Virus record (IMG/VR): IMGVR_UViG_3300042503_002394
Location: 1-64,000 of that record
Strand: one strand, 5' to 3'
DNA length: 64,000 nucleotides
DNA from: a virus
Numbering within the stretch: the stretch's first letter is position 1; every line of letters starts with the position of its first letter. Below are positions 6,023 to 23,678 of the stretch, piece after piece. Made by a program: the position numbers and the translations under genes. The notes below the pieces were generated by a model. The model made no database searches. It saw only the letters and a list, made by a program, of their open reading frames with translations, and had not been told where the DNA came from.

Positions 6023-6664
6023 TTAAACTTTACACTCATTTTGACTTATTGAATAAAACCATGCATTACTATCTTCGGTTGTCCATTTATCGTAACTCTC
6101 ACAATTCCAAATTTTAGAATTTCCTTTGTAATCTGGTTTTTCTGGGAACGGTTTTGTTATAAAACTTGGATCTCTCCATTTTAAACGGTTATTAGGTTGT
6201 AAAACAAAACACCCATTATCTAATTCAATAAAATGAGAAGATTTATGCTCAAATGGATCAGCAGCTAAAGTTAAATCTATTCCATGAGAGTAATCTGGAC
6301 CCCATTGGAACGTCCATAAATAAGTGCCACTTTCCCAGTTTCCATTTTTTAATTTTACGTCTACTTTTAAACCAGACAAATAATTAATTGAAATTATTGA
6401 AAAATTGGCAGAAAAACAATTCCAAAGCTGTAAATGATGAAATGGTATTTCTGGTGCATTTTTATCTGTTACGAATGCATGAATTGGAAGTTTATCACGT
6501 AAAACACCATTTTCCATTAAAACTTGAAATAGCATTCCTGAACCACAAACAGATCTTGCGCTAACAATTATACCTCTATCAAATTCACCAAACCCTTTTT
6601 CTAAATCATATTGAAACTCTTTTTTAACCCAAACTTTTATAGGTGGAGTGCTTACCTCATGCAT
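6023..6664 (-). CDS. Conserved-looking phage protein of unknown function, 213 aa
   Basis: I place the start at ATG 6664-6662 (MHEVSTPPIKVWV). The frame stays open upstream to a TTG at 6700, but that codon lies inside a clear terminator hairpin, so the longer form is unlikely. The product is rich in W, F and Y, with motifs such as LQLWNCFSANFS, WTFQWGPDYSHGIDLT and PNNRLKWRDPSF. It has no transmembrane segment and I recognise no family. A TGTGTAAA box lies 7 nt before the chosen ATG, consistent with a nearly leaderless transcript starting just after the terminator. Position suggests a late gene. Confidence 0.7.
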   Translation of the reverse strand: MHEVSTPPIKVWVKKEFQYDLEKGFGEFDRGIIVSARSVCGSGMLFQVLMENGVLRDKLPIHAFVTDKNAPEIPFHHLQLWNCFSANFSIISINYLSGLKVDVKLKNGNWESGTYLWTFQWGPDYSHGIDLTLAADPFEHKSSHFIELDNGCFVLQPNNRLKWRDPSFITKPFPEKPDYKGNSKIWNCESYDKWTTEDSNAWFYSISQNECKV

Positions 6665-6671
6665 AATAAAA

Positions 6672-6679
6672 TTTACACA
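6672..6679 (-). promoter_or_regulatory. Candidate late promoter box (TGTGTAAA), 7 nt before ATG
   Basis: On the minus strand TGTGTAAA follows directly after the T-run of the 6679-6708 terminator and is 7 nt from the ATG at 6664. Placement between a terminator and a start codon favours a promoter function. Same motif as at 58399, 61545 and 23687. Confidence 0.45.
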
Positions 6680-6708
6680 AAAAAACCCCCTTGTTTCCAA
6701 GGAGGTTT
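6679..6708 (-). terminator. Rho-independent terminator after the holin-like gene
   Basis: The minus strand forms an 11-bp stem, AAACCTCCTTG paired with CAAGGGGGTTT (one G-U pair), with a GAAA tetraloop followed by T residues. It lies 20 nt after the stop of the 6728-6934 gene. Confidence 0.9.
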
Positions 6709-10126: not shown

Positions 10127-12466
10127 TTAATTTAAAATTAAGATAGTATTTCCATTGATAATTTTGCTAGAGATGTCTGGAATTAATTTCGACTCTATTG
10201 CTGAATTTAATTTTTCTATACAGTTATCTTCAGAGTAATTTTTATCAATGAATTCTTTAATAAATTTAAAATTAAAATTTAACTTTATGTCTTTTATGGT
10301 TAAGTTGCTCTGAATTTTTTTCAATCTATTAAACAATATTCTTCTTAGATCTTTTTTCTTTAATGAAGAAAATTGAACTTTTTCTGTTATTAAATCTAAA
10401 ATTTCTTTTTCAATTGTTGGTTCATTAAATTGATTTTTATCAATATTGAATCCCATAGTTTTTACATTAGCTTTGCCACCACATGTTAAGAAGATTTTGC
10501 AATTTGAAAAATCTGCGATATCTCCATTATTCATTTGCAATCGCCCCTCTTTTAATATTTGACAAAACAAACCAAAAGAAGATGGATTGACCTTATCGAA
10601 GTCATCAATAATAATTACGCTGTTAGGATGTATGCAGATTTTTTCAGCTAACGATGTATTATTATTTAAATCAGAAATAATTTTATAAGGCGCAAAAGAA
10701 TCGGAAAATTCTATGCCATTATAACTTATAACATTTGTTCCTATTTTTTGAAGTTCATCTTTAATTAACTGACAAAAAAGAGTTTTACCAACTAATTTAG
10801 GTCCATAAATTAACAAACAATCAGGTTTATTAAAACTTGATTTAGCGCTCAAACTAAGATTTAAAACACTTAACATGTTAAACATGTTTTTAAGTGCGGC
10901 GTTTTGCCCAGCTATATCTTTTTTGATATTACTAAAAATAATTTTATTATTTTCAGTTCGATTCATTGGATTTGTTTTTTTATCAAAAAATGTTTTAAGA
11001 TGATCTAATTTAACATGGGCTTCTGTTTTTACCAACTTCTTCTCCCAAGACTCCATTTTTTCATTCATTTCCTCTATCATTTCTTTTTTGAAATGACCAT
11101 TTTTTTCTACATATTCAATAATTTCTCTTTGTTTGCTTTTAATTGATTCGTCTACTTCCCAGAAATTCACTTTCGCTTGAGCGCCACAATGATCAATAAC
11201 ATCAATTGCTTTGTCTGGATAAAATTTATTTGGAGTAAATCTTTCACAAAAATTAATAACATTTTCAACAAATTCTTCTGAATATTTTACATTATGAAAA
11301 TCTGCGTAATAATCAATTATTTGTGGCAAGATTTCTTTCATTTGAAATTTAGAAGGTTCTTTGACAATAACTCTTTCGAACCTTCTGTCAAGCGCAGAAT
11401 CTTTTTTAATTGTATTTGTATATTCAATAATAGTTGTAGCGCCTATACAGCTAATTGTGCCACGCGCAAGTTCTGGTTTTAAAATGTTTGATGCTTCAAG
11501 AGAGTGGTTTTGGCCTCCACCAGCGCCAACTAAAGTATGAATTTCATCAATAAATAAAATTAAATTACTATATTTTTTTGCCTCCTCAACAAAATCTTGA
11601 AGTCTTTTTTCAAATTGACCACGATATTCTGTTCCAGCAACCATAGCTCCTAAGTTAATTGAGTAAATAACTTTATTTGAAAGCAATTCTGGCGCTTCTC
11701 CTTTAATAATTTTTAATGCAAGACCCTCTACTAGGGATGTTTTTCCAGTTCCAGCTGGACCAACCAAAATAGCATTTGGTTTTTTCTTTCTACATAAAAT
11801 TGTAGCAAGTTCATCTATCTTATTATCAAAATCAATAATTTTATCAAATTTTCCTTCTGCAGCTTTTATATTAAGATTTTCTGCAAATTTTGAAAGAATT
11901 GGGTTTTCAACAAACATATCGATCCAATCGTCCACTTTATCATTTGCATTTTTATCATTTTCTTTGTTTTCTAAAAAATTAGAAAGAATAAAAAAATCTT
12001 TGCAGAAAATTAAAGTTTCTGATAATAAATCATTTATTATTTCATTGTTTAATATTTCTTCACCCCTTTTAATATCAAAAAATTTATATATTGCTTTTGG
12101 AGCAAACTCTTCTGAAAGGAAGCAAATAATTAATGACTCTGGAGATATGTAATCAATATCTAATTGCTCTTCACAAATGTTCTCAGCTAGAATAAAAAAT
12201 CTTTTTAGATCTGGAAGGAAGTGGTCTGATGGCACTTTGCTTTTACCCTTTTTAACAAAAGATAATGCTGTCGATGTAAGTTCAGCGGTGTTTATCTCAC
12301 ATTTTGAAAAAATGTTAAACGAAGATAAATTCATTTTGTTCATAAAACAATAAAAAAACAAATCTAAGTCAATTCCACTTTTATTCAAGCGAACTGACAA
12401 TAACTTACAGTCTTCTATTATTCCTTGTAGATGTGGTGTAAAGGGAAGTTTAATCATTTTTTGCAT
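10127..12466 (-). CDS. ClpA/ClpC-like double AAA+ unfoldase
   Basis: 779 residues. An N-terminal helical region is followed by AAA domain D1 with Walker A GPAGTGKT (236-243), Walker B LILFIDE (302-308), the pore segment AGTEYRGQFEKR and the DRRFERV arginine finger. D2 has Walker A GPKLVGKT (555-562) and Walker B IIIDD near 618-622. At 671-673 the tripeptide MGF stands where ClpA carries its IGL ClpP-docking loop, so binding to host ClpP is possible. The usual FRNRLD arginine-finger motif of D2 is not visible, so D2 may be weak. It overlaps the polymerase gene by 17 nt. Possible roles are targeted proteolysis or remodelling of host or phage proteins. No clpP is present in the window. Confidence 0.85.
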   Translation of the reverse strand: MQKMIKLPFTPHLQGIIEDCKLLSVRLNKSGIDLDLFFYCFMNKMNLSSFNIFSKCEINTAELTSTALSFVKKGKSKVPSDHFLPDLKRFFILAENICEEQLDIDYISPESLIICFLSEEFAPKAIYKFFDIKRGEEILNNEIINDLLSETLIFCKDFFILSNFLENKENDKNANDKVDDWIDMFVENPILSKFAENLNIKAAEGKFDKIIDFDNKIDELATILCRKKKPNAILVGPAGTGKTSLVEGLALKIIKGEAPELLSNKVIYSINLGAMVAGTEYRGQFEKRLQDFVEEAKKYSNLILFIDEIHTLVGAGGGQNHSLEASNILKPELARGTISCIGATTIIEYTNTIKKDSALDRRFERVIVKEPSKFQMKEILPQIIDYYADFHNVKYSEEFVENVINFCERFTPNKFYPDKAIDVIDHCGAQAKVNFWEVDESIKSKQREIIEYVEKNGHFKKEMIEEMNEKMESWEKKLVKTEAHVKLDHLKTFFDKKTNPMNRTENNKIIFSNIKKDIAGQNAALKNMFNMLSVLNLSLSAKSSFNKPDCLLIYGPKLVGKTLFCQLIKDELQKIGTNVISYNGIEFSDSFAPYKIISDLNNNTSLAEKICIHPNSVIIIDDFDKVNPSSFGLFCQILKEGRLQMNNGDIADFSNCKIFLTCGGKANVKTMGFNIDKNQFNEPTIEKEILDLITEKVQFSSLKKKDLRRILFNRLKKIQSNLTIKDIKLNFNFKFIKEFIDKNYSEDNCIEKLNSAIESKLIPDISSKIINGNTILILN

Positions 12467-15017
12467 CTCTTAATTTCATATAAATTTTACTATCAATAAT
12501 TTTAACATTATCTACAAATAGTGTATCAGAACTTTTAGTACCAGACAATATTAAAATATCTCCTTTTTGTATTTTATTGTTTTCTGTAAAATTTGTCAAC
12601 TTTGCTTCTCTTCTGTTGTCCATAAATAAGAATTTTTGATCTGCCTTGTTATCCGATAACATAATCATCATATATTTATTGCCATTTGAGCTAATTCTAG
12701 TAAATGAATCCTTAACTTGACCAACAACTTTGAATTCACTCCTATCTATAAAATCATTAATGCTTTTAATATCATCAAGAGTTCCAAATTCATCTTCAAA
12801 ACATTCTTTTAATTCATGAGAATAACTATAGCCAAGCAAATAGTTTTCATACCACCATTTAGAAAATTTATCATGCTTTTTGTTATGAGAATAAATTTCT
12901 TTATATTTTGAAAAATTATTTTTAAAAGTAATGAATCTTTTTTCAGAAATTACGAGTTTGTTGTCATCTCCAATAATTTTTTTCTCTACAACTTCTGCGA
13001 TAGAAGTTAAAATATCGAAACCAAACCTATCGCCTATTTTTACAAAGTTACGTTTTTCACGCTCTGTCAAAAGATTAAATGCCTGAGCTTCAAGAACAAG
13101 TCTACTTCTATCTGGAGAGGAGTCAGACATCGTACCAGCCTGAATGAGTGCAGATAGTACTGAAATATTTATACCAGCATTTTTTGCCGCAGTAAACACT
13201 TCATATTTATTGTTGAACGATAATCCTCTAAAATCTACTAAAGCTTCTAGAGCTTTTACCGAAACACCTTTAATGCTATTTAAACCATAACGGATATTAT
13301 CTCCCTCAATGGAGAAATTCATCTTAGAGTGTTCTAAAGATGGCGGCAATAATTTTATTCCAAAATTAACTAACTCCTTACTAATGGCCGAAATGTTTTC
13401 CAATGGATCTGGTTCAAATTCTGCGCATTCAAGAATAGAAACGAAAAATTCCTTGGGGTATTTATGTTTAAGGAAAACAGTTTTAGCCGCCAACGTTGCG
13501 TAAGCAAAACTATGAGACTTGTTGAATGAGTAATCGGCAGATGCTTGAAGAGCATTCCAATAGAAGTCACTTATTTTTTCGTCTAAATTTTGCTTTTCAC
13601 CAGCTTTATAAATTTTTTCTTTCCATGCTGGCATATCATCAACTTTTTTCTTACCAACAATTCTTCTTAGAACTTCAGCTTCTTCAAGAGTCAATCCAAA
13701 TACTTTATTAGCAATTTGCATAAGTTGTTCTTGATAAAGAATAACGTTCTTTGACCAAGAAAGAATTTTATCTAAATCATCATGTAAATTTAATTGACTT
13801 GGGTTTTGTTTTTGATCTTTATAAATTGAAACAAATTGTAATGCTCCAGGTCTAGCTAAAGCAATTACATCTGATAGTTCATTTAAATTATCAGGCTTAA
13901 CCTCTTGACATACTTTAAAGTTTGTATCTGCGGAAATTTGGAATAACCCCATTGGGTAGTTAAAATTTTGAAGAACTTCATAAATAAATTCATCATTTGG
14001 GTCAATTTCATTAATATCAATATCAACTTTTGAGCAAGTTTTATGAGCAATAGTCAATGTTCTAAGACCCAGAATATCAAACTTAACCATAAGGTCACTC
14101 ACATCATTCATATCGTAACCAGTTACGATGTCTCCATCTTTTGTTTTTTGAAGAGGTACTACGTCACTAATTTTTTGAGAACAGATTGCAATTCCTGATG
14201 GATGCACTCCAGTATTTTTGTTTAAATTCTCTATTTTAAGAGCGTTCTCAAATGTTTTTTTGTGCTTTTTGATCCATTGATCAAATTTTTCATTTTCAGA
14301 TTTAGCATTAGTTAAACTAAAAACTTTACCATGTACTTTGGGAATCATATCGCTAATCTCATTAGCCTCTTCCTCTTTTGCTTCATCAAAATATTTTGTG
14401 GCTTCTCTAATGCAAAGCTTTGAGCTAAAGGTGTTAAACGTTAGAATTTTTGCTGTTCTGCCAAAATGTTTTTTTTCAATATAATCTATAACTTTTTGTC
14501 TTTGGTCATAAGAGATGTCCGAATCTACGTCTGGAAGTAGACTCCCAACCAAATACTCCTTACCTGATTTATCATAAACTTTTTGTGCGCGAGATTTGGA
14601 AACAAATCTTTCAAAGAAAAGATCATGGGGTATTGGATCAATATTAGTTACGCCAAGCAAATATAAAACAAGACTGCCAGCGGCAGATCCTCTACCAGCT
14701 CCAGTTGGTATGCTATTAGTATGGCAAAAATTTAAAATATCCCAATTTAATAAAATATAATCAGTAAAACCGAGTTCGTCAAATGTATCCAACTCTTGTT
14801 TTGCTCTATCGTAATATTTTTGCTTATTTATTTTTTTAGTTATACCCTTTTCTCTTAGCGCATTTCTAACGAGAGATTTAAGTAGATCAAAGCTAGAGCT
14901 TTCATTATTAAGTGAAGAATCAATCTTTTTTAAGATTGATTCTTCAACAGAGATTTTCGGCAAATCTACACCTACTGGTTCACAATTATCGTAATTATAA
15001 AAGTCTTTAAAAATCAT
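12450..15017 (-). CDS. dnaE: DNA polymerase III alpha subunit core (DnaE-type), lacking PHP
   Basis: 855 residues. The palm carries GAGRGSAAGSL (106-116), PDVDSD (162-167) and VKFDILGLRTL (D314), which hold the three metal-binding aspartates of DnaE enzymes. The fingers region includes EEAEVLRRIVGKKK and FNKSHSFAYATLA, and the C-terminus an OB fold (VGQVKDSFTRISSNG...). The normal N-terminal PHP domain is absent and is encoded separately two genes upstream. The polymerase should therefore be catalytically complete but assembled from subunits. It overlaps the exonuclease gene by 4 nt, and that gene overlaps the PHP gene, so the three are translationally coupled. Standard DnaE is about 1160 residues. 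Confidence 0.93.
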   Translation of the reverse strand: MIFKDFYNYDNCEPVGVDLPKISVEESILKKIDSSLNNESSSFDLLKSLVRNALREKGITKKINKQKYYDRAKQELDTFDELGFTDYILLNWDILNFCHTNSIPTGAGRGSAAGSLVLYLLGVTNIDPIPHDLFFERFVSKSRAQKVYDKSGKEYLVGSLLPDVDSDISYDQRQKVIDYIEKKHFGRTAKILTFNTFSSKLCIREATKYFDEAKEEEANEISDMIPKVHGKVFSLTNAKSENEKFDQWIKKHKKTFENALKIENLNKNTGVHPSGIAICSQKISDVVPLQKTKDGDIVTGYDMNDVSDLMVKFDILGLRTLTIAHKTCSKVDIDINEIDPNDEFIYEVLQNFNYPMGLFQISADTNFKVCQEVKPDNLNELSDVIALARPGALQFVSIYKDQKQNPSQLNLHDDLDKILSWSKNVILYQEQLMQIANKVFGLTLEEAEVLRRIVGKKKVDDMPAWKEKIYKAGEKQNLDEKISDFYWNALQASADYSFNKSHSFAYATLAAKTVFLKHKYPKEFFVSILECAEFEPDPLENISAISKELVNFGIKLLPPSLEHSKMNFSIEGDNIRYGLNSIKGVSVKALEALVDFRGLSFNNKYEVFTAAKNAGINISVLSALIQAGTMSDSSPDRSRLVLEAQAFNLLTEREKRNFVKIGDRFGFDILTSIAEVVEKKIIGDDNKLVISEKRFITFKNNFSKYKEIYSHNKKHDKFSKWWYENYLLGYSYSHELKECFEDEFGTLDDIKSINDFIDRSEFKVVGQVKDSFTRISSNGNKYMMIMLSDNKADQKFLFMDNRREAKLTNFTENNKIQKGDILILSGTKSSDTLFVDNVKIIDSKIYMKLRDAKND

Positions 15018-15628
15018 AGTTCCATATTTTTTTTAATTTCTAAAAATACCTTGAAGCACATTTCACAATCATAAACCGCTTCATGTAATTTATTTTCATC
15101 AAATTCAATTCCAAAAAATTTCAACTGCTGTATTTGGGACACTTTTGATTTTAATGATCTGTCATGCATTATTTTATATTGCCATGACAAAAAATCGCAT
15201 TTAGGCTTATCTAGCTTTTCTCTAAAAGCTTTTCCTAAGCACCTTGTGTCATAAATCCTATTCAAATAAGAATAGTCTGGTTTTTCACCAAGCAATCTTT
15301 GTAGGATTGCTATCATATAAACATCAAAGCCAAGAATATTTTGTCCCACAATTATATAATCATCGTTATATAAATAACTCTTAAATTTTTCCCATACTTC
15401 TTTTGGGTTTTTCTTTTTCTTATTGTAATAGTCGAAATTAAAACCAGTTAATTTAATTACTGTATCATTAAGCTTTAAATCTGGATATGAAATATATTCA
15501 TCATGTTTCTCAATAACGCGATTACCTTGACAAACAATCCAAGCTAGTTGCCAAGGTCTTGATGAAAACAAATTTAACCCTTCGGTTTCTGTATCAAATA
15601 CAATGTATTTCTGATTATATGGAAGCAT
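15014..15628 (-). CDS. dnaQ: DnaQ-like 3'-5' proofreading exonuclease (DEDDh)
   Basis: 204 residues with the full DEDDh set: D12 and E14 in VFDTETEG, D102 in QNILGFDVYM, and H182 with D187 in LHEAVYDCEM. This family removes mispaired 3' ends, and the adjacent polymerase and PHP genes make it the likely proofreading subunit. It overlaps both neighbours (4 and 14 nt). No other domain is present, and a beta-clamp-binding motif is not obvious. Confidence 0.92.
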   Translation of the reverse strand: MLPYNQKYIVFDTETEGLNLFSSRPWQLAWIVCQGNRVIEKHDEYISYPDLKLNDTVIKLTGFNFDYYNKKKKNPKEVWEKFKSYLYNDDYIIVGQNILGFDVYMIAILQRLLGEKPDYSYLNRIYDTRCLGKAFREKLDKPKCDFLSWQYKIMHDRSLKSKVSQIQQLKFFGIEFDENKLHEAVYDCEMCFKVFLEIKKNMEL

Positions 15629-16334
15629 GATTTTCTATATATGATTGCCAACAAAATTCATTTGAACAAAAATGATTTAAATTTGGATTTGAATGACATG
15701 GATTTTTTCCATTTGAACGATTGCAAATTGCCTTGTACATTTGAAAGGCATCGAAGTCATCTCTGTTTTTATAATATATTGATTTTGCAGATTGTACTAG
15801 TTGATTAGATCCATCCAGTGTAATTTTATTAACTTGATTTTTTATAAAAAAGTCAAATGGGTGATGATTATCTTCAACAAGATAAAAATGATCAAACCTT
15901 GATAGTTCTAAATGAGATAATCCAAAATAAAATAAATTATTATAAATATAAGAATCGTAAAATGGGACAGCGATTTTAATATCATTAAAAAATGAATCTT
16001 CCACTTCAGATAAGTTCAAGACGATTTCTTTGTTTTCAAAGGTTTTTGAATAAAGAGCTTTTATATTGTTTATGCCATTATTATTTTTTGCAAAAAATAT
16101 TAATTTACTAGGAAGTTCGGAAAGTGAATTTTGAACAACTGATAATCTTATGCCAAAGATTAGTTTAATATCGAGCTGTTGGGCGAGATTATTAAGACCT
16201 CTAAATCCATAGAAGGAGTCTTCAACAACAACAATTTCTTTAAGATTGTATTCTAATTGAATATCGAATATATCTTTTGGCCGTAATATGGATTTTCCAA
16301 TACTAAAGTGGGTTTTGAAAAGAGGTATCGTCAC
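15615..16334 (-). CDS. Stand-alone PHP-domain-like N-terminal part of DNA polymerase III alpha
   Basis: 239 residues, GTG start. PLFKTHFSIGKSIL, a central IVVVEDSFYGFRGLNNLA, IKLIFGIRLSVV and KLIFFAKNNNGINNIKALYSK match the order of the DnaE PHP domain (HxHS..., TDxxxxxG, GxE, LIxLAKNxxGYxNLxxLxS). The canonical HxH is reduced to KTHFS and other metal ligands appear lost, so I expect a structural rather than phosphoesterase role. The C-terminal 35 residues hold C/H pairs (CNRSNGKNPCHSN and HFCSNEFC) that could bind zinc. It is read first, followed by exonuclease and polymerase. Confidence 0.75.
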   Translation of the reverse strand: MTIPLFKTHFSIGKSILRPKDIFDIQLEYNLKEIVVVEDSFYGFRGLNNLAQQLDIKLIFGIRLSVVQNSLSELPSKLIFFAKNNNGINNIKALYSKTFENKEIVLNLSEVEDSFFNDIKIAVPFYDSYIYNNLFYFGLSHLELSRFDHFYLVEDNHHPFDFFIKNQVNKITLDGSNQLVQSAKSIYYKNRDDFDAFQMYKAICNRSNGKNPCHSNPNLNHFCSNEFCWQSYIENHASI

Positions 16335-16343
16335 TAAAGAAGT

Positions 16344-17390
16344 TTATAACAATTCATTAATATTGTCAAATCTAAAAGCTGGACATCCAGAATATTTTCT
16401 TTTTTCTATAAAAAAACCAACTCCATTTTTTCTTTTTTTATCTAGTTCTTGTTTATCGTAAGAAGAAGAAATAATATTTTTATCTTCATCCAATAATACA
16501 AAATAATCAAATGGAAATTTAAATGGGCAATGCCACATCAAAGTTCCATCTTTTTTTAATTGACCCTTATGTTCAGCTCTTCCACATACAATTCTTCCAC
16601 TAAAACCTTCTTCTTTAGAAGGAAATCCTTTGTTATATGCAAGACCATCAATTGCAGATTTTTCATTAAAATTATTAATTATTGATTGAATTTGCGTCAA
16701 AAAATATTCAAAGCCTTCTAGTTCATCTTCTGATACTTCACTCATTTCTAGAAGACCTTCGTTTTTGCAGTCAAATTTTAAAAACAAAAACTCCATATCT
16801 CTTTTTAGATAATCTGGATATAGATATTTAACCGCAAGACAATACATTAAATTTTGCATATTATCTTCCACTTCTTGTCCGCTAAAAATTTGTTTAGATG
16901 TTTTAAAATCTCTTATTAAAGCTGTTCTCTTTTTCTTGAATAGAAACAACTTATCTATAAAACCAAGAATTCTATAATTCTTTTGATTGTCCTTTACTTC
17001 TATGTCAAAATCTTTTTCACTGATAGACTCGGCTGGTTTGCCGTATTTATTACCAAAAAAATCATAATTAAGACCTTCCATAATCATTTGATTGATTAAT
17101 TCAAGATTATCAAAATCATCAATTTTATTCTTTTTTGCAAAAGACTTAACCATACGATTAATTGGTTTGGATGATGTTATATCTTGGCTCTTAACCAAGG
17201 CATCATAATGATGCTTGTGTCTTGGATCACCAAGAACCTCAAAAACGGCGTGACAGATGCTGCCCCTCAAACTTCCTTCGTTTGTTGTGTCTGGAAGTTT
17301 TAAATGATATTTGCACCAATACTGCCAAGAACATGTTTGCAAGGTTTTAATTCTTGATGCTGAAAGAGGTTTATTTGCTAATTCACTCAT
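16344..17390 (-). CDS. RecB/Cas4-like PD-(D/E)XK nuclease
   Basis: 348 residues. The N-terminus LSASRIKTLQTCSWQYWC is the typical RecB-nuclease entry. Downstream, GSLRGSICHAVFE supplies the motif I histidine, RILGFIDKL the GxID aspartate, IRDFKTSK the D-x-K pair and DNMQNLMYCLA the QxxxY motif. Further cysteines near the C-terminus (VCGRAEH, HCPF, GCPAF) with those at the N-terminus could hold an Fe-S cluster or zinc, as in Cas4 and AddB, but the spacing is not canonical. Located between primase and polymerase genes, it likely processes DNA ends in replication or recombination. It overlaps the primase by 8 nt. Confidence 0.85.
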   Translation of the reverse strand: MSELANKPLSASRIKTLQTCSWQYWCKYHLKLPDTTNEGSLRGSICHAVFEVLGDPRHKHHYDALVKSQDITSSKPINRMVKSFAKKNKIDDFDNLELINQMIMEGLNYDFFGNKYGKPAESISEKDFDIEVKDNQKNYRILGFIDKLFLFKKKRTALIRDFKTSKQIFSGQEVEDNMQNLMYCLAVKYLYPDYLKRDMEFLFLKFDCKNEGLLEMSEVSEDELEGFEYFLTQIQSIINNFNEKSAIDGLAYNKGFPSKEEGFSGRIVCGRAEHKGQLKKDGTLMWHCPFKFPFDYFVLLDEDKNIISSSYDKQELDKKRKNGVGFFIEKRKYSGCPAFRFDNINELL

Positions 17391-18429
17391 AGTTAAATTT
17401 ATAAAGTTTTTTAAGTTTTTTAAGAGAATCAGAAAAAGATTTATTTGTTTTTAATGTAGACTCCATTTTTTCCGCTATTGAAACAACCATTTCAATAGAT
17501 TCTTTATGGCTCATATCATCGACTTTTTTAAGATAAATCTCTAAATCATCTTTTGACATTTGCCCAAAATCATTTAAATCGGGTGGTATAAAATAAACAT
17601 GTTTAAAGTCTATTGTGTCAATAAGTTTAAATACAGACTTAATTGCACCTTCAAAACCACGATTCCTATCAGAAAGATAATCATTGTTAAAACAAACAAT
17701 AATTTTTTTAACTGGCATTAAGCTAAGTTTAGATATGAATTTGGATGAAATGTTTAGGCCGAAACTAACTAAATTATTTTTGACACCTTTGTCAAAAAGC
17801 GACAAAGAATCACCAATTGATTCTACAATAAAAACTTTCTCGGAACCAAAGATTGAGGTTTCACATTCATCAACTGAATAAAATGGATAAAACCAGTCAG
17901 CGACTCTTCCAATATGAAGCCATTTAGGTTTGTTTTCATCTAGATCAATTCTTCTGCCAGAAAAACCATGTATCCTTTTATCCTTATTAAAAATTGGGAA
18001 TATCGTTCTTTGATACATTTTACCAGATGTAGAAAAACCACATTGATATTTTTTAAGAGTTTCAATTGAGATGTTCTTCTCTAGATAAAAATCATAATGC
18101 GGCAAAAGTCTTTGTAGAGATGCTGTTGGATATGTTTTTTCCTCTTTCAATAACTTTTTTTCTTTAATTACATTTACACCCTTTTGTATGTCTTTCAAAT
18201 AACTCTTAATTATATTATTATCATTTGTATTTAATGTACGAGACAACAACGCCTCAAATGGCATAAAAGTACTGTCCTCTACATAGTCTTTCCATACTCC
18301 AGTGTCCTTGTAAATTTGAAGTGCCGTAGTGTTATCTCCAGATCTATATACAGCATTTGTCCTCCAATATTGACCATGGTCTTTTAGATTATATCCTAGG
18401 CTTTCTAAAATTTCTCTATACTTACTCAT
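17383..18429 (-). CDS. DNA primase (DnaG-like TOPRIM)
   Basis: 348 residues. The N-terminal part (YWRTNAVYRSGDNTTALQIY...GVWKDY) resembles the primase zinc-binding region but lacks its cysteines. The catalytic part has IFPIFNKDKRIHGFSGR, the TOPRIM glutamate in VFIVESIGDSLSL, and IIVCFNND...GFEGA in place of the DxD motif, where the first acidic residue is Asn. It overlaps the helicase gene by 4 nt upstream and the nuclease gene downstream. It should prime lagging-strand synthesis with the adjacent DnaB-like helicase. It is about half the length of bacterial DnaG. Confidence 0.82.
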   Translation of the reverse strand: MSKYREILESLGYNLKDHGQYWRTNAVYRSGDNTTALQIYKDTGVWKDYVEDSTFMPFEALLSRTLNTNDNNIIKSYLKDIQKGVNVIKEKKLLKEEKTYPTASLQRLLPHYDFYLEKNISIETLKKYQCGFSTSGKMYQRTIFPIFNKDKRIHGFSGRRIDLDENKPKWLHIGRVADWFYPFYSVDECETSIFGSEKVFIVESIGDSLSLFDKGVKNNLVSFGLNISSKFISKLSLMPVKKIIVCFNNDYLSDRNRGFEGAIKSVFKLIDTIDFKHVYFIPPDLNDFGQMSKDDLEIYLKKVDDMSHKESIEMVVSIAEKMESTLKTNKSFSDSLKKLKKLYKFNYE

Positions 18430-19967
18430 TGTGAAAAAATCATTGGAATGGAGTTATCTTCGTCATCTTCTTCAAGATGAACGTCTTCATTATTCATAGA
18501 ACGAACAATGTCATTCAAGTCGCCTTTTTCTGTGATGCAGAAGTTTTCAAATTCAAGATTAATGAAATTAGATTTTTTACTTCCATCTGGCATTTCAACT
18601 GGATTGATTGCTCTTAATGGATCTTTGCCAAGATGCCTTGCTTTAAGATTGACTAATTTGTGAGAGCCAAATCTATTTCCCTCAGAATGAATTTCTTCAG
18701 CAATCTTTTTACGCAATAAGAAAAGATGAGAGCAAAATTGAGTAATTCCATCAGAGAGAGAAACAACGCTTTCGTCATCGACAATTGAATCAGCACTTCT
18801 GTTGTTTGTGATTCCAAGTCTATTTGATTGAACAGATGTTATCATTGAAACGCATGGTTTGCCATCAAAACAAAGATCCCTATGAATAGTTTGTTTAAAC
18901 TTATGAACCATATAAGAAACTTGTTGCCATCCATCGACTTTACCAATAGATCCGAAATCACTTTTGATATAATCAAAACTAAAAATCAATGGATTACCTC
19001 TACCTATCTTAGAATAATAGAATCTTTTCAAAAGAGATGCCATTTCATCTGGACTCATACCAGCAACATTCTCGTAATAAAATTCCATATTCTTAATTGT
19101 TTTAAAAGTAGACCTCACTTTCGCCACAACCTGTTCAGGAGTCATTCCTTTATAAGAAGATGTTCTCCATTTACCTGTTTGCAAAAGCCAGACTGGTATT
19201 CCAGTCATTGCCGAACATTGACGAAAGATCAATTCTTCTTCACTCATTTCTCCATTGTCAAAATGAAGAACTGGAACATCATGCATTGCAGATACCTTTG
19301 TTGTGTAATCCATACAAAATTGCGTCTTACCAACTCCAGATCGAGCGACAATAACAGTTATGTTTCCAGGCAATAATAAAGATCCATACATATCGTTAAT
19401 TTTATCGTGTGGACCCATAAGTCCAAATGTATCAACTGGATTGTTACCACGTTCTTCGACAACCTCTTCCATAATCTCGAAAAGATTAATTGGGCCAGAT
19501 TCATTTATTTCAAAATCTTTTATACTCTTATTGTAGATTTGGTCTGCCTTTTCTACAATTTCGCTATATTTTAAACTTGGATCTATATTCTTGACAAAAG
19601 ATGCCACATCTTTGCATGTTGCATAAATTTCTCTTCTGGCTGTAAATTTCTTTAATTCACGAACTGATGATTCAAAAACGTCTTCGCTAATTTTAAAAAA
19701 GGCAAGAGAATAAATGTATTCCGAAACATCTATACTATCTGGAAAACTAACCTTTAGTTGATTTATTCTTTGAATGAGAATGGTTTCATCAATCAGTTCT
19801 GCATTGTCCAATGCGTTTTTAAGCAACTTAAATATGGATATATTTACCTTAGAGCTTTCGGTATAAAAATCATTGTCCTTTAAAAATGATGATACTTCAG
19901 CCCATTTTTTAGGATGTTGAATAATTCCGCTTAATACTTTTTTTTCTAATTCGTATGAAAAAATCAT
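18426..19967 (-). CDS. dnaB: Replicative DNA helicase (DnaB-like)
   Basis: 513 residues. The N-terminal helical domain starts EKKVLSGIIQHP, typical of DnaB. The RecA-like domain has Walker A ARSGVGKT, the catalytic-glutamate motif HFDNGEMSEEELIFRQ, Walker B region LIFSFDYIKSD and the downstream motif MITSVQSNR (switch Q). The length fits the family. It is expected to form a hexamer on the lagging strand and interact with the primase encoded by the overlapping next gene. It overlaps the 74-aa gene upstream by 4 nt. Confidence 0.93.
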   Translation of the reverse strand: MIFSYELEKKVLSGIIQHPKKWAEVSSFLKDNDFYTESSKVNISIFKLLKNALDNAELIDETILIQRINQLKVSFPDSIDVSEYIYSLAFFKISEDVFESSVRELKKFTARREIYATCKDVASFVKNIDPSLKYSEIVEKADQIYNKSIKDFEINESGPINLFEIMEEVVEERGNNPVDTFGLMGPHDKINDMYGSLLLPGNITVIVARSGVGKTQFCMDYTTKVSAMHDVPVLHFDNGEMSEEELIFRQCSAMTGIPVWLLQTGKWRTSSYKGMTPEQVVAKVRSTFKTIKNMEFYYENVAGMSPDEMASLLKRFYYSKIGRGNPLIFSFDYIKSDFGSIGKVDGWQQVSYMVHKFKQTIHRDLCFDGKPCVSMITSVQSNRLGITNNRSADSIVDDESVVSLSDGITQFCSHLFLLRKKIAEEIHSEGNRFGSHKLVNLKARHLGKDPLRAINPVEMPDGSKKSNFINLEFENFCITEKGDLNDIVRSMNNEDVHLEEDDEDNSIPMIFSQ

Positions 19968-20188
19968 AGTGATATATTATCTTCGTTGTCTTCAATAAAA
20001 AGTTCAATTGTTTTCTTAAGAGCCATGTTTACACACATGTTATCAAATTTATTTAAAATAGATGGAATGCCATCTGAATTAACATAAGCAAGAATAAAGC
20101 CTTTTGTTCCAGATGATGATGTACCTGTAAGATCATAAAGTTTATGGACTATTGATTCTGGTAATGTAAATGGTTCATTTTCCTTCAT
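19964..20188 (-). CDS. Small protein of unknown function in the replication operon, 74 aa
   Basis: MKENEPFTLPESIVHKLYDLTGTSSSGTKGFILAYVNSDG. The pattern 'IVxKLYDLTG...GFxLxYVNxxG' appears in short proteins next to helicase or RecA genes in other phages, but I know no function for it. It overlaps both neighbouring genes by 4 nt (ATGA), so its expression is tightly coupled to replication. The acidic C-terminus (EDNEDNISL) might mediate protein contact. Confidence 0.65.
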   Translation of the reverse strand: MKENEPFTLPESIVHKLYDLTGTSSSGTKGFILAYVNSDGIPSILNKFDNMCVNMALKKTIELFIEDNEDNISL

Positions 20189-20592
20189 AAGATTTCTAAA
20201 TTCTTTAAGAGTTCCTCGTCTAGTTTATCCGATTCCAATATTCTTACAAGCTTAATATTGTTGACATCGCAAAAAAGTTCCTTTTTTTCATCTCTTTGTA
20301 ATTGGGCTAAAAAATTTTGTCTTGAATTTGAGTGAAAAAATTTATTAAATTTATAATGTTGATTTCCGTCTACTTCAATAGCAATTTTTTTATTTGCATT
20401 ATAAAAATCAATTGTTAATCTTGTGCTAATAACTGGCATTTCTTCAAAAACAATATCTGCAATCCAGTATTTTTTTAATAAATCTTTAACTCTTTTTTGA
20501 ATTTTACTTTTACATGTACTATTCCACTTTATTAAATAACGAGTTGAGTTTTTTAATTTTACTGATTTACCTGATGTCGATAAAAATATCAT
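20185..20592 (-). CDS. PD-(D/E)XK-type small endonuclease, 135 aa
   Basis: The N-terminal third is basic (KSKIQKRVKDLLKKYW). The core RLTIDFYNANKKIAIEVDGNQHY gives D62, E73, D75 and Q78/H79, in the D...ExDGxxH arrangement of very-short-patch-repair-like and DUF559-like nucleases. A following QRDEKKELFCDVNNIKLVRI matches the conserved R-D-x-x-K and final strand of that fold. It sits between RecA and the helicase with 4-nt overlaps on both sides. A role in recombination-dependent replication or host DNA degradation is plausible. Confidence 0.75.
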   Translation of the reverse strand: MIFLSTSGKSVKLKNSTRYLIKWNSTCKSKIQKRVKDLLKKYWIADIVFEEMPVISTRLTIDFYNANKKIAIEVDGNQHYKFNKFFHSNSRQNFLAQLQRDEKKELFCDVNNIKLVRILESDKLDEELLKNLEIL

Positions 20593-22074: not shown

Positions 22075-23137
22075 TAAACTCTTTATAATAGAGATTAATG
22101 TCATTGTCAACCATTTTTCTAACCAATTTATCAAAAGACGTTTTGGGCATCCATTTTAATTCTTTCCGAGCTTTCGTGGAATCCCCTAAAAGCAAATCAA
22201 CTTCTGCGGGGCGATAAAATTTTTGATCAATTTGAACTAATTTTAATTCTGGAACACCTGCAAAATCATTTAAGTAATTTGGCAGTAAATATAAAGTATC
22301 TAAGTTTTCGCCAACCCAAATACCATCAATGCCAGCAGCCTTAAAAGCTAACTCCACAAATTCTTTTATTGTGTGAGTTTCATTAGAGGATAGCACATAT
22401 TCTTTAGGTTCGTCTTGATTTAACATTAACCATACACCCTCTACGAAATCAGGACAGTAACTCCAGTCTCTAGCGGAATTAATATTACCCAAGCAAATTG
22501 GATCAAATGAAGTTTTATTTTCAATTGCTTTTTTGATTCTAGCAACGCCTTTTGTAATTTTACGAGTTACAAACTCTTCGCCTCTTCGTTCTGATTCATA
22601 ATTAAAACACCAACACTGAAGAGCAAAAAGATTGTAGCTTTCTCTATAAACTTTGATAATTTGTCTTGCAGCAATCTTAGATGCTCCGTATGGACTTCGT
22701 GCGCGAGCGGGATGCTCTTCATTTTGCGGTATAGTCACAACATCTCCGAACTCTTCGGAAGACCCAAAATTAACATAACGAGTAGATGGAGAATGTTTGC
22801 GTATGGCTTCCAGCTGTCTCAAAACACCCAAGCAATTATACTCAAAATGTTGCTCTGGACAATCCCAACTTGTTCCCACGAAACTATTAGCAGCGCAATT
22901 AATAAAGTAATCTGGTTTATATTTTTCTACAATATTATTTATGGAGTGACTGTCTCCGAGATCCATTAGTTCGAAGATAATTTTTTTATTATCTTTGATC
23001 TTTTTGATGTTTTCTTCATTAGGAACGCTGAGTCTCCTAGTAACACCTATAACGGTAATTCCTTGCGACAAAAGGAATTCCGCAAAAAAAGAACCCATTT
23101 GTCCCGTAACGCCTGTGACTATTGCTGTTTTATTCAT
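22061..23137 (-). CDS. gmd: GDP-mannose 4,6-dehydratase
   Basis: 358 residues. TGVTGQMGSFF at residues 8-18 is the Gmd NADP-binding signature. Other family motifs are NCAANSFVGTSW, RYVNFGSSEEFG, PQNEEHPARARSPYGASK (Y-x-x-x-K), CWCFNYESERRGEEFVTRKIT and NSARDWSYCPDFVEG, together with FYRPAEVDLLLGD. The enzyme converts GDP-mannose to GDP-4-keto-6-deoxymannose, the precursor of fucose, rhamnose and related sugars. No fucose synthase is seen in the window, so the final sugar is unknown. The gene overlaps the HNH endonuclease by 8 nt. Confidence 0.93.
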   Translation of the reverse strand: MNKTAIVTGVTGQMGSFFAEFLLSQGITVIGVTRRLSVPNEENIKKIKDNKKIIFELMDLGDSHSINNIVEKYKPDYFINCAANSFVGTSWDCPEQHFEYNCLGVLRQLEAIRKHSPSTRYVNFGSSEEFGDVVTIPQNEEHPARARSPYGASKIAARQIIKVYRESYNLFALQCWCFNYESERRGEEFVTRKITKGVARIKKAIENKTSFDPICLGNINSARDWSYCPDFVEGVWLMLNQDEPKEYVLSSNETHTIKEFVELAFKAAGIDGIWVGENLDTLYLLPNYLNDFAGVPELKLVQIDQKFYRPAEVDLLLGDSTKARKELKWMPKTSFDKLVRKMVDNDINLYYKEFNGAK

Positions 23138-23678
23138 ATTGAAAATTGTATATTTGTTTAATTAAGTTTAAAAATTCGATATTGTCCATTGACTGTTTTG
23201 CGTAATTGACATCAACATGCAGCCATTGAACATTATCAATAGTATAAGATTTTTTAGGATTGATTCTATCTAAAGATGCAGTTGATTTGTAATCTATACG
23301 GCTATTTGGAAATCTGAGATCAAGCCCAGAAATAGCGCATTTTCTATTTTGCTTTAAAAATAAATTCCAAATGTCTTCAATATTTAAGTTAAAATCTAAG
23401 TTTCTTTTTTTAGCTCCAAGTTTTATTCTATTGAAATGAGTTTGACTAATTTCTCCGAACCCCTTCCATCTAGGACTTTTTGTATTAAAAGCATGTTTCA
23501 GGCATCCACAGCTTTTATAATGCTCGCCAATTAAATTCCATAATTCCACATGAGTAGTGCTGCCACAATGAATGCATTCACATTTAGCAAAAATTCTTTT
23601 TTCTTTTCTCTCCGATCTGCATAGTAATTTCAAGCCACCGAAAACTTTATCAACATTTAATTCTATTGTTTTGCTCAT
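23130..23678 (-). CDS. HNH-type endonuclease, probably homing-like
   Basis: 182 residues. The N-terminal part carries Cys pairs C33, C35, C38, C57 and C59 (CECIHCGS...KSCGCLK), a probable zinc-binding DNA-recognition unit. The C-terminal half has KCAISGL, ASLDRINPKKSY and NVQWLHVDVNYAKQSM, a degenerate HNH nuclease core typical of phage free-standing homing endonucleases. It sits exactly between an intact gmd and a frameshifted gmd-like 5' remnant. This suggests it moved into this locus together with, or next to, a replacement gmd allele. A TGTGTAAT box lies 8 nt before its ATG. Confidence 0.85.
   Translation of the reverse strand: MSKTIELNVDKVFGGLKLLCRSERKEKRIFAKCECIHCGSTTHVELWNLIGEHYKSCGCLKHAFNTKSPRWKGFGEISQTHFNRIKLGAKKRNLDFNLNIEDIWNLFLKQNRKCAISGLDLRFPNSRIDYKSTASLDRINPKKSYTIDNVQWLHVDVNYAKQSMDNIEFLNLIKQIYNFQYE

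Follow-up and report, generated by a model that had tools for sequence, protein, structure and literature searches.

Three consecutive genes of an uncultured virus were predicted to encode a DNA polymerase III that is split, in reading order, into a PHP-like domain, a DEDDh exonuclease and a DnaE-like polymerase core. The original prediction pointed out that this order recalls the fused layout of PolC, and proposed that the locus may be either a broken fusion or a split that precedes one. This raises the questions of whether the three genes are related to PolC, how the PHP domain came to be separated from the polymerase, and what role it may have as a separate protein.

The replication operon and its three polymerase genes

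The window, i.e. the whole stretch of 64,000 nucleotides that we analyzed, belongs to an 85-kb record (G000) of this virus. The three overlapping genes, all on the minus strand, were found at the predicted coordinates and in the predicted order, as confirmed by the ORF table and the overlaps (Table 1); according to the ORF table, the PHP gene starts with a GTG codon. They form part of an operon with the order UvsX, DnaB helicase, toprim primase, PD-(D/E)XK nuclease, PHP, exonuclease, polymerase and ClpA-like AAA+ protein. The ATGA overlap between the exonuclease and polymerase genes suggests that their translation is coupled. The ClpA-like gene, whose double AAA+ product would be an unfoldase-like protein within a replication operon, lies downstream of the polymerase gene throughout the lineage described below. 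No homologue of the sliding clamp (PF02767) was found in the 85-kb record, which may be incomplete; the phage polymerase may therefore use the clamp of its host.

Table 1. Positions of the features discussed; all refer to the window, except the last row, which refers to three related contigs.
Feature	Position	Strand	Basis
DnaB-like helicase	18426..19967	-	
Toprim primase	17383..18429	-	
PD-(D/E)XK nuclease, upstream of PHP	16344..17390	-	Pfam PDDEXK_1 4.4e-15
PHP domain, free-standing, DnaE-type, ligand-less (predicted)	15615..16334	-	Pfam PHP, AF2 model, ligand alignment, dN/dS
Overlap of PHP stop and exonuclease start, 14 nt	15615..15628	-	sequence
DEDDh 3'-5' exonuclease, predicted proofreader, 204 aa	15014..15628	-	RNase_T, invariant catalytic residues
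ATGA overlap of exonuclease stop and polymerase start, 4 nt	15014..15017	-	sequence
PHP-less DnaE-type polymerase (palm, thumb, fingers, HhH, C-terminal region), 855 aa	12450..15017	-	Pfam, invariant aspartates, DnaE structures
ClpA-like two-domain AAA+ protein	10127..12466	-	start overlaps polymerase end by 17 nt
HNH/homing-endonuclease-like gene in the replication operon	20185..20592	-	
Endonuclease VII-like gene in the replication operon	23130..23678	-	
Gene matching a PHROG annotated ferredoxin	6023..6700	-	E 3.5e-58
Homing-endonuclease-like ORFs between PHP and exonuclease	L001 8596-9390; L016 8354-9376; L019 8489-9403		

The 239-aa product of the first gene matches the Pfam PHP family (PF02811, E 1.3e-7), exceeding its curated cut-off. 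A search of the PDB with the PHP profile by sequence alone returned nothing meaningful. An AlphaFold2 model of the window protein, built with 16 relatives, reached a pLDDT of 80 and a pTM of 0.81, and its top PDB match in Foldseek was E. coli DnaE (2hnh, E 2.9e-10, TM 0.70 on the query). It also aligned with the PHP-epsilon chimeras 4gx8 and 4gx9 with a TM of up to 0.73 (4gx8), and with the DnaE proteins of Taq and M. tuberculosis, the best matches all being DnaE PHP domains; PolC (3f2b) ranked 18th, with a TM of 0.62. Viral matches were mostly phage DnaE-like polymerases. The original prediction was to be abandoned if this protein failed to model as a PHP fold; it does model as one, as its match to the DnaE PHP domains in the PDB shows.

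The metal ligands had been described as eroded. Their loss turned out to be complete and lineage-wide: in an alignment with active and inactive PHP domains, the ligand set HHDHEHCDH was absent from all 153 distinct PHP proteins of the lineage, which thus lack the nine residues (HHDHEH[C/H]DH) that bind metal in active PHP exonucleases. The window protein has, at these positions, gap, gap, E, D, R, K, F, S and Y, and the single histidine close to its N-terminus is replaced by T, Q, N or S in relatives. The PHP proteins of the lineage carry conserved motifs of their own, such as VPFYDS, and share as little as 24% identity with each other. Judged from its sequence and modelled fold, the 239-aa protein is a catalytically dead PHP domain of the DnaE type.

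The second gene encodes a protein matching RNase_T (E 4.8e-15), the only such match in the 85-kb record. Its DEDDh (DnaQ-like) catalytic set is complete, with D12, E14, D102, H182 and D187 invariant across 14 relatives. The protein ends with the exonuclease fold, at 204 aa, and lacks the epsilon-like C-terminal tail that binds PHP, so that the known PHP-epsilon contact cannot simply be transferred to this system. The third protein matches DNA_pol3_alpha (6.5e-62), the finger domain (2.6e-33) and HHH_6 (9.6e-16), and its catalytic aspartates D163, D165 and D314 are invariant. When compared with known structures, its profile matched DnaE at 1e-95 to 1e-79, versus 9e-6 over about 85 residues for PolC. 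An AlphaFold2 model of this chain alone was poor (pLDDT 55). Thus, the identities proposed for the three genes are all upheld by Pfam matches, the AlphaFold2 fold match and the catalytic residues.

We collected related loci by scanning viral contigs, and retained 159 with distinct exonuclease DNA and all three genes. In every one of them the PHP domain is encoded by a separate ORF and the polymerase chain has no N-terminal PHP domain, the feature that characterizes DnaE polymerases of the C family, which extends to the whole lineage the prediction of a polymerase without PHP.

Relation to PolC and origin of the division

Could the locus be a PolC that broke apart, or a stage in the formation of one? 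Apart from the gene order, what speaks for this is that the exonuclease profile matches PolC exonucleases (99%); it matches PolC and DnaQ exonucleases in general, as would be expected of any DEDDh exonuclease. The exonuclease tree, which is too weak to name a source, leaves the lineage outside the PolC exonucleases. Moreover, in PolC sequences the exonuclease begins after '...GIEANLIDDG', past the GxE strand and inside PHP, between ligands E5 and H6, and this internal position has also been described in the literature (PMC3919608). The PHP protein of the window is uninterrupted at that site, and the exonuclease gene comes after it. The lineage PHP profile matched DnaE PHP domains with a probability of 98% over about 210-221 columns, versus 25% over 75 columns for PolC PHP. 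Finally, PolC is separated from all other sequences with a support of 100 in the tree of C-family cores, as a remote outgroup. Neither an exonuclease within PHP nor a core of the PolC type was therefore found, and a derivation from, or towards, PolC is very improbable; polymerase profile, tree, insertion site and PHP profile all reject PolC ancestry. It follows that the order PHP, exonuclease, polymerase can arise without PolC, and that the suggested connection does not hold.

The phylogeny that had been proposed as a check was computed as a quick tree of 80 C-family cores, with PolC as the root. The split lineage was monophyletic (SH-aLRT 100) and nested within a group of phage DnaE polymerases with fused PHP (support 92), apart from DnaE1, DnaE2 and DnaE3; it thus groups with DnaE-type phage polymerases. 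A single chain carries both PHP and polymerase in bacteria and in almost every other virus examined. Likewise, all but one of the phage DnaE relatives examined outside the lineage have PHP and polymerase at the start of one frame; in Bacillus phage KLEB27-3, an HNH gene breaks the fused PHP-polymerase gene at a later point. The likely nearest fused relatives are two uncultured contigs, L339 and L344 (support 66-86), the sister relation and exact branching having weak support in this quick tree (66-92). Upstream of their fused genes they encode homologues of the primase (E 6e-16 and 3e-19) and of the PD-(D/E)XK nuclease (2e-11 and 1.2e-13) of the window. Their PHP ligands read HHNHEHCDH, and most of the fused phage relatives sampled have intact or nearly intact ligands. 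No RNase_T gene was present in five of six fused records checked, which include fragments, so that this absence is no proof.

The alignment of the two pieces with fused proteins locates the place of the division. PHP ends just after the motif aligned to 'NFYIRSTEEM' and the polymerase begins just before the 'LPxF' linker, only a short linker helix being missing in between. Because the clade is nested among fused phage polymerases and shares neighbouring genes with L339 and L344, the most likely history is a single division of a fused DnaE within the linker that joins PHP to palm, with the exonuclease gene placed between the pieces. Of the two alternatives offered by the original prediction, the broken fusion hence stands, as a divided fused DnaE, and the split that precedes a fusion is disfavored by the tree and by the lack of fused loci: the suggested search of related phages recovered fused versions outside the lineage and none among its 159 loci.

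It is possible, though doubtful, that a mobile element such as a free-standing homing endonuclease or a split intein made the split, which would be compatible with the division of a fused DnaE. L001, L016 and L019 have related homing-endonuclease-like ORFs in the gap that separates PHP from the exonuclease, and at least seven relatives have a polymerase gene broken up by apparent split inteins. Against this, no intein remnant was found at the end of PHP or at the start of the polymerase, and the gap usually holds the exonuclease gene alone.

The fractured polymerase genes deserve mention in their own right. In L001 (10001-10603 and 10706-13048) the apparent split intein lies between GRG and SAAGSL; its N-half begins C-FVSGQSVKLYNGD and its C-half ends ...NINGAAVHN before the S. 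As its polymerase gene is fractured in this way, L001 would build its replicase from four ORFs. A second site, between FNK and SHS, is occupied by an apparent split intein in L020 (9989-11773 / 12006-13193) and also in L021, L157, L313, L315, L322 and L328; in these loci, endonuclease ORFs that are Vsr-like, GIY-YIG-like or HNH-like lie between the halves or inside them. This second site is presumably close to the split-intein site of cyanobacterial DnaE.

Conservation of the lineage and possible role of the PHP protein

In all 159 loci, PHP, exonuclease and polymerase are separate frames in the same order on one strand. The median intergenic gaps are 22 nt (PHP-exonuclease) and 11 nt (exonuclease-polymerase), and gaps of more than 200 nt occur in 27 and 36 of the 159 loci, respectively, reaching 3.4 kb in the former case. 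With gaps this large in many loci, the arrangement is not generally a fusion broken by a frameshift. Pairwise distances between the genes are strongly correlated (Mantel r of 0.90 for PHP-polymerase, 0.92 for exonuclease-polymerase and 0.84 for PHP-exonuclease, with none of 999 permutations as high as observed). Thus, the distances of the three genes agree, and within the lineage they do not point to genes that were brought together independently. Median dN/dS values of 0.053 (PHP), 0.045 (exonuclease) and 0.049 (polymerase) indicate strong purifying selection, and, being equally low, that the dead PHP is constrained like the polymerase. The chance that the arrangement stems from faulty assembly or a frameshift error, or that it is a pseudogene in decay, is negligible: nothing was found in its favor, the 159 loci are distinct and come from many metagenomes, and all three genes are under purifying selection.

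No close homologues were found among cultured phage records, where the best polymerase identity was about 32%; the split lineage is a widespread, uncultured group of bacterial viruses. One member, 60% identical, is on a contig labelled Candidatus Lokiarchaeota (L187, 3650-6197); this contig is probably viral and ended up in the bin of an archaeal genome. Three phage-labelled records surfaced whose DnaE groups with bacterial DnaE1, L179 (MT835750), L389 (MT835501) and L394 (OQ572403, 'Pseudomonas phage Y1'); given this grouping, and the near identity of L394 to Pseudomonas DnaE1, they are probably bacterial sequence. Our literature search returned no description of a split between PHP, exonuclease and polymerase, although an earlier mention in surveys of viral replicases is possible. 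The lineage may therefore represent an apparently undescribed C-family DnaE replicase whose PHP is a separate, dead and conserved gene.

What could such a PHP protein do? The PHP domain of E. coli Pol III has lost its metals but stabilizes the polymerase, and its surface binds the exonuclease epsilon (PMC3666897, PMC3919608). We consider it probable that PHP and polymerase were divided once, in the ancestor of the lineage, and that PHP now acts in trans as a non-catalytic scaffold in a three-protein core replicase. The three proteins would assemble into this core, in which the PHP protein would stabilize palm and thumb and so complete the polymerase; it may also hold the exonuclease near the primer end. 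The exonuclease, in turn, would supply the proofreading once given by a metal-binding PHP, and the translational overlaps would help to make the chains together. For a more demanding version, an obligate three-subunit replicase in which the dead PHP completes the polymerase in trans and docks the exonuclease, and which some members build from four genes via split inteins, we see the case as evenly balanced.

On the other hand, the detached PHP may have taken on another role, for instance in host takeover, and stay beside the polymerase through synteny alone. The wide gaps after PHP in 27 loci, the lineage-specific motifs such as VPFYDS and the low identity between PHP proteins would fit such a drift. 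We regard it as unlikely, as order and strand are fixed in all 159 loci, the distances of PHP correlate with those of the polymerase, its dN/dS resembles that of the polymerase, and the polymerase chain itself lacks a PHP domain.

Loss of PHP ligands often goes together with another proofreader (PMC12926913), and the lineage offers a case in which proofreading was apparently handed from PHP to a DEDDh exonuclease in phages. It should be noted that the idea that every eroded phage PHP adjoins an exonuclease gene fails for the fused phage polymerases L387, L388 and L390, whose PHP is eroded and whose upstream genes are not exonuclease-like; in view of these, the loss of ligands need not go hand in hand with the gain of an exonuclease. 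The literature describes PHP as strictly conserved among the replicative polymerases of bacteria, even when metal-less, and its non-enzymatic role is still debated (PMC3666897, PMC5636811). The lineage amounts to a natural separation-of-function experiment, with a PHP that is cut off and dead, yet selected like the polymerase; since the two are separate proteins, the role of the dead PHP can be tested directly.

Comparison with known replicases

The E. coli-type Pol III core (DnaE1 and DnaQ) combines the same elements, a DnaE-type polymerase, a dead PHP fold and a separate DEDDh exonuclease. The split lineage differs from it in having PHP as a separate gene and an exonuclease without the epsilon C-terminal tail, and, short of a systematic search, neither a clamp-binding motif nor a C-terminal tau-binding domain was obvious. 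The DnaE1 of Bacteroidetes (PMC3919608) likewise has a DEDDh exonuclease of its own, but fused in front of PHP, with nothing split.

Among phages, Streptomyces phages Faust and PinkiePie, Moorella phage MTATph1 and the uncultured L339 and L344 belong to the same polymerase clade as the split lineage; however, their PHP and polymerase form one chain, in which the PHP ligands are intact or nearly so. Pbunavirus KPP12 and Luteibacter phage Pluto resemble the lineage in having an exonuclease gene directly upstream of the polymerase and eroded PHP ligands, but their PHP is still fused to the polymerase and they belong to a different branch of the tree. PHP and polymerase are also separate, with several unrelated genes in between, in L336 (2122-3102 and 4881-7622) and in L418 and L419; the only relatives of L336 found were two contigs that apparently stem from a single virus. 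There, the boundary between the two lies about where it does in the split lineage, but all nine ligands are kept (HHDHEHCDH), no exonuclease lies between, and the sequences form a separate branch beside a fused relative. By these sequence features, this is a second, independent split of PHP and polymerase. PolC, finally, shares with the split lineage the coarse order of PHP, DEDDh exonuclease and C-family polymerase, but it is one chain with the exonuclease within PHP, whereas the lineage has a polymerase and a PHP of the DnaE type, encoded by separate genes.
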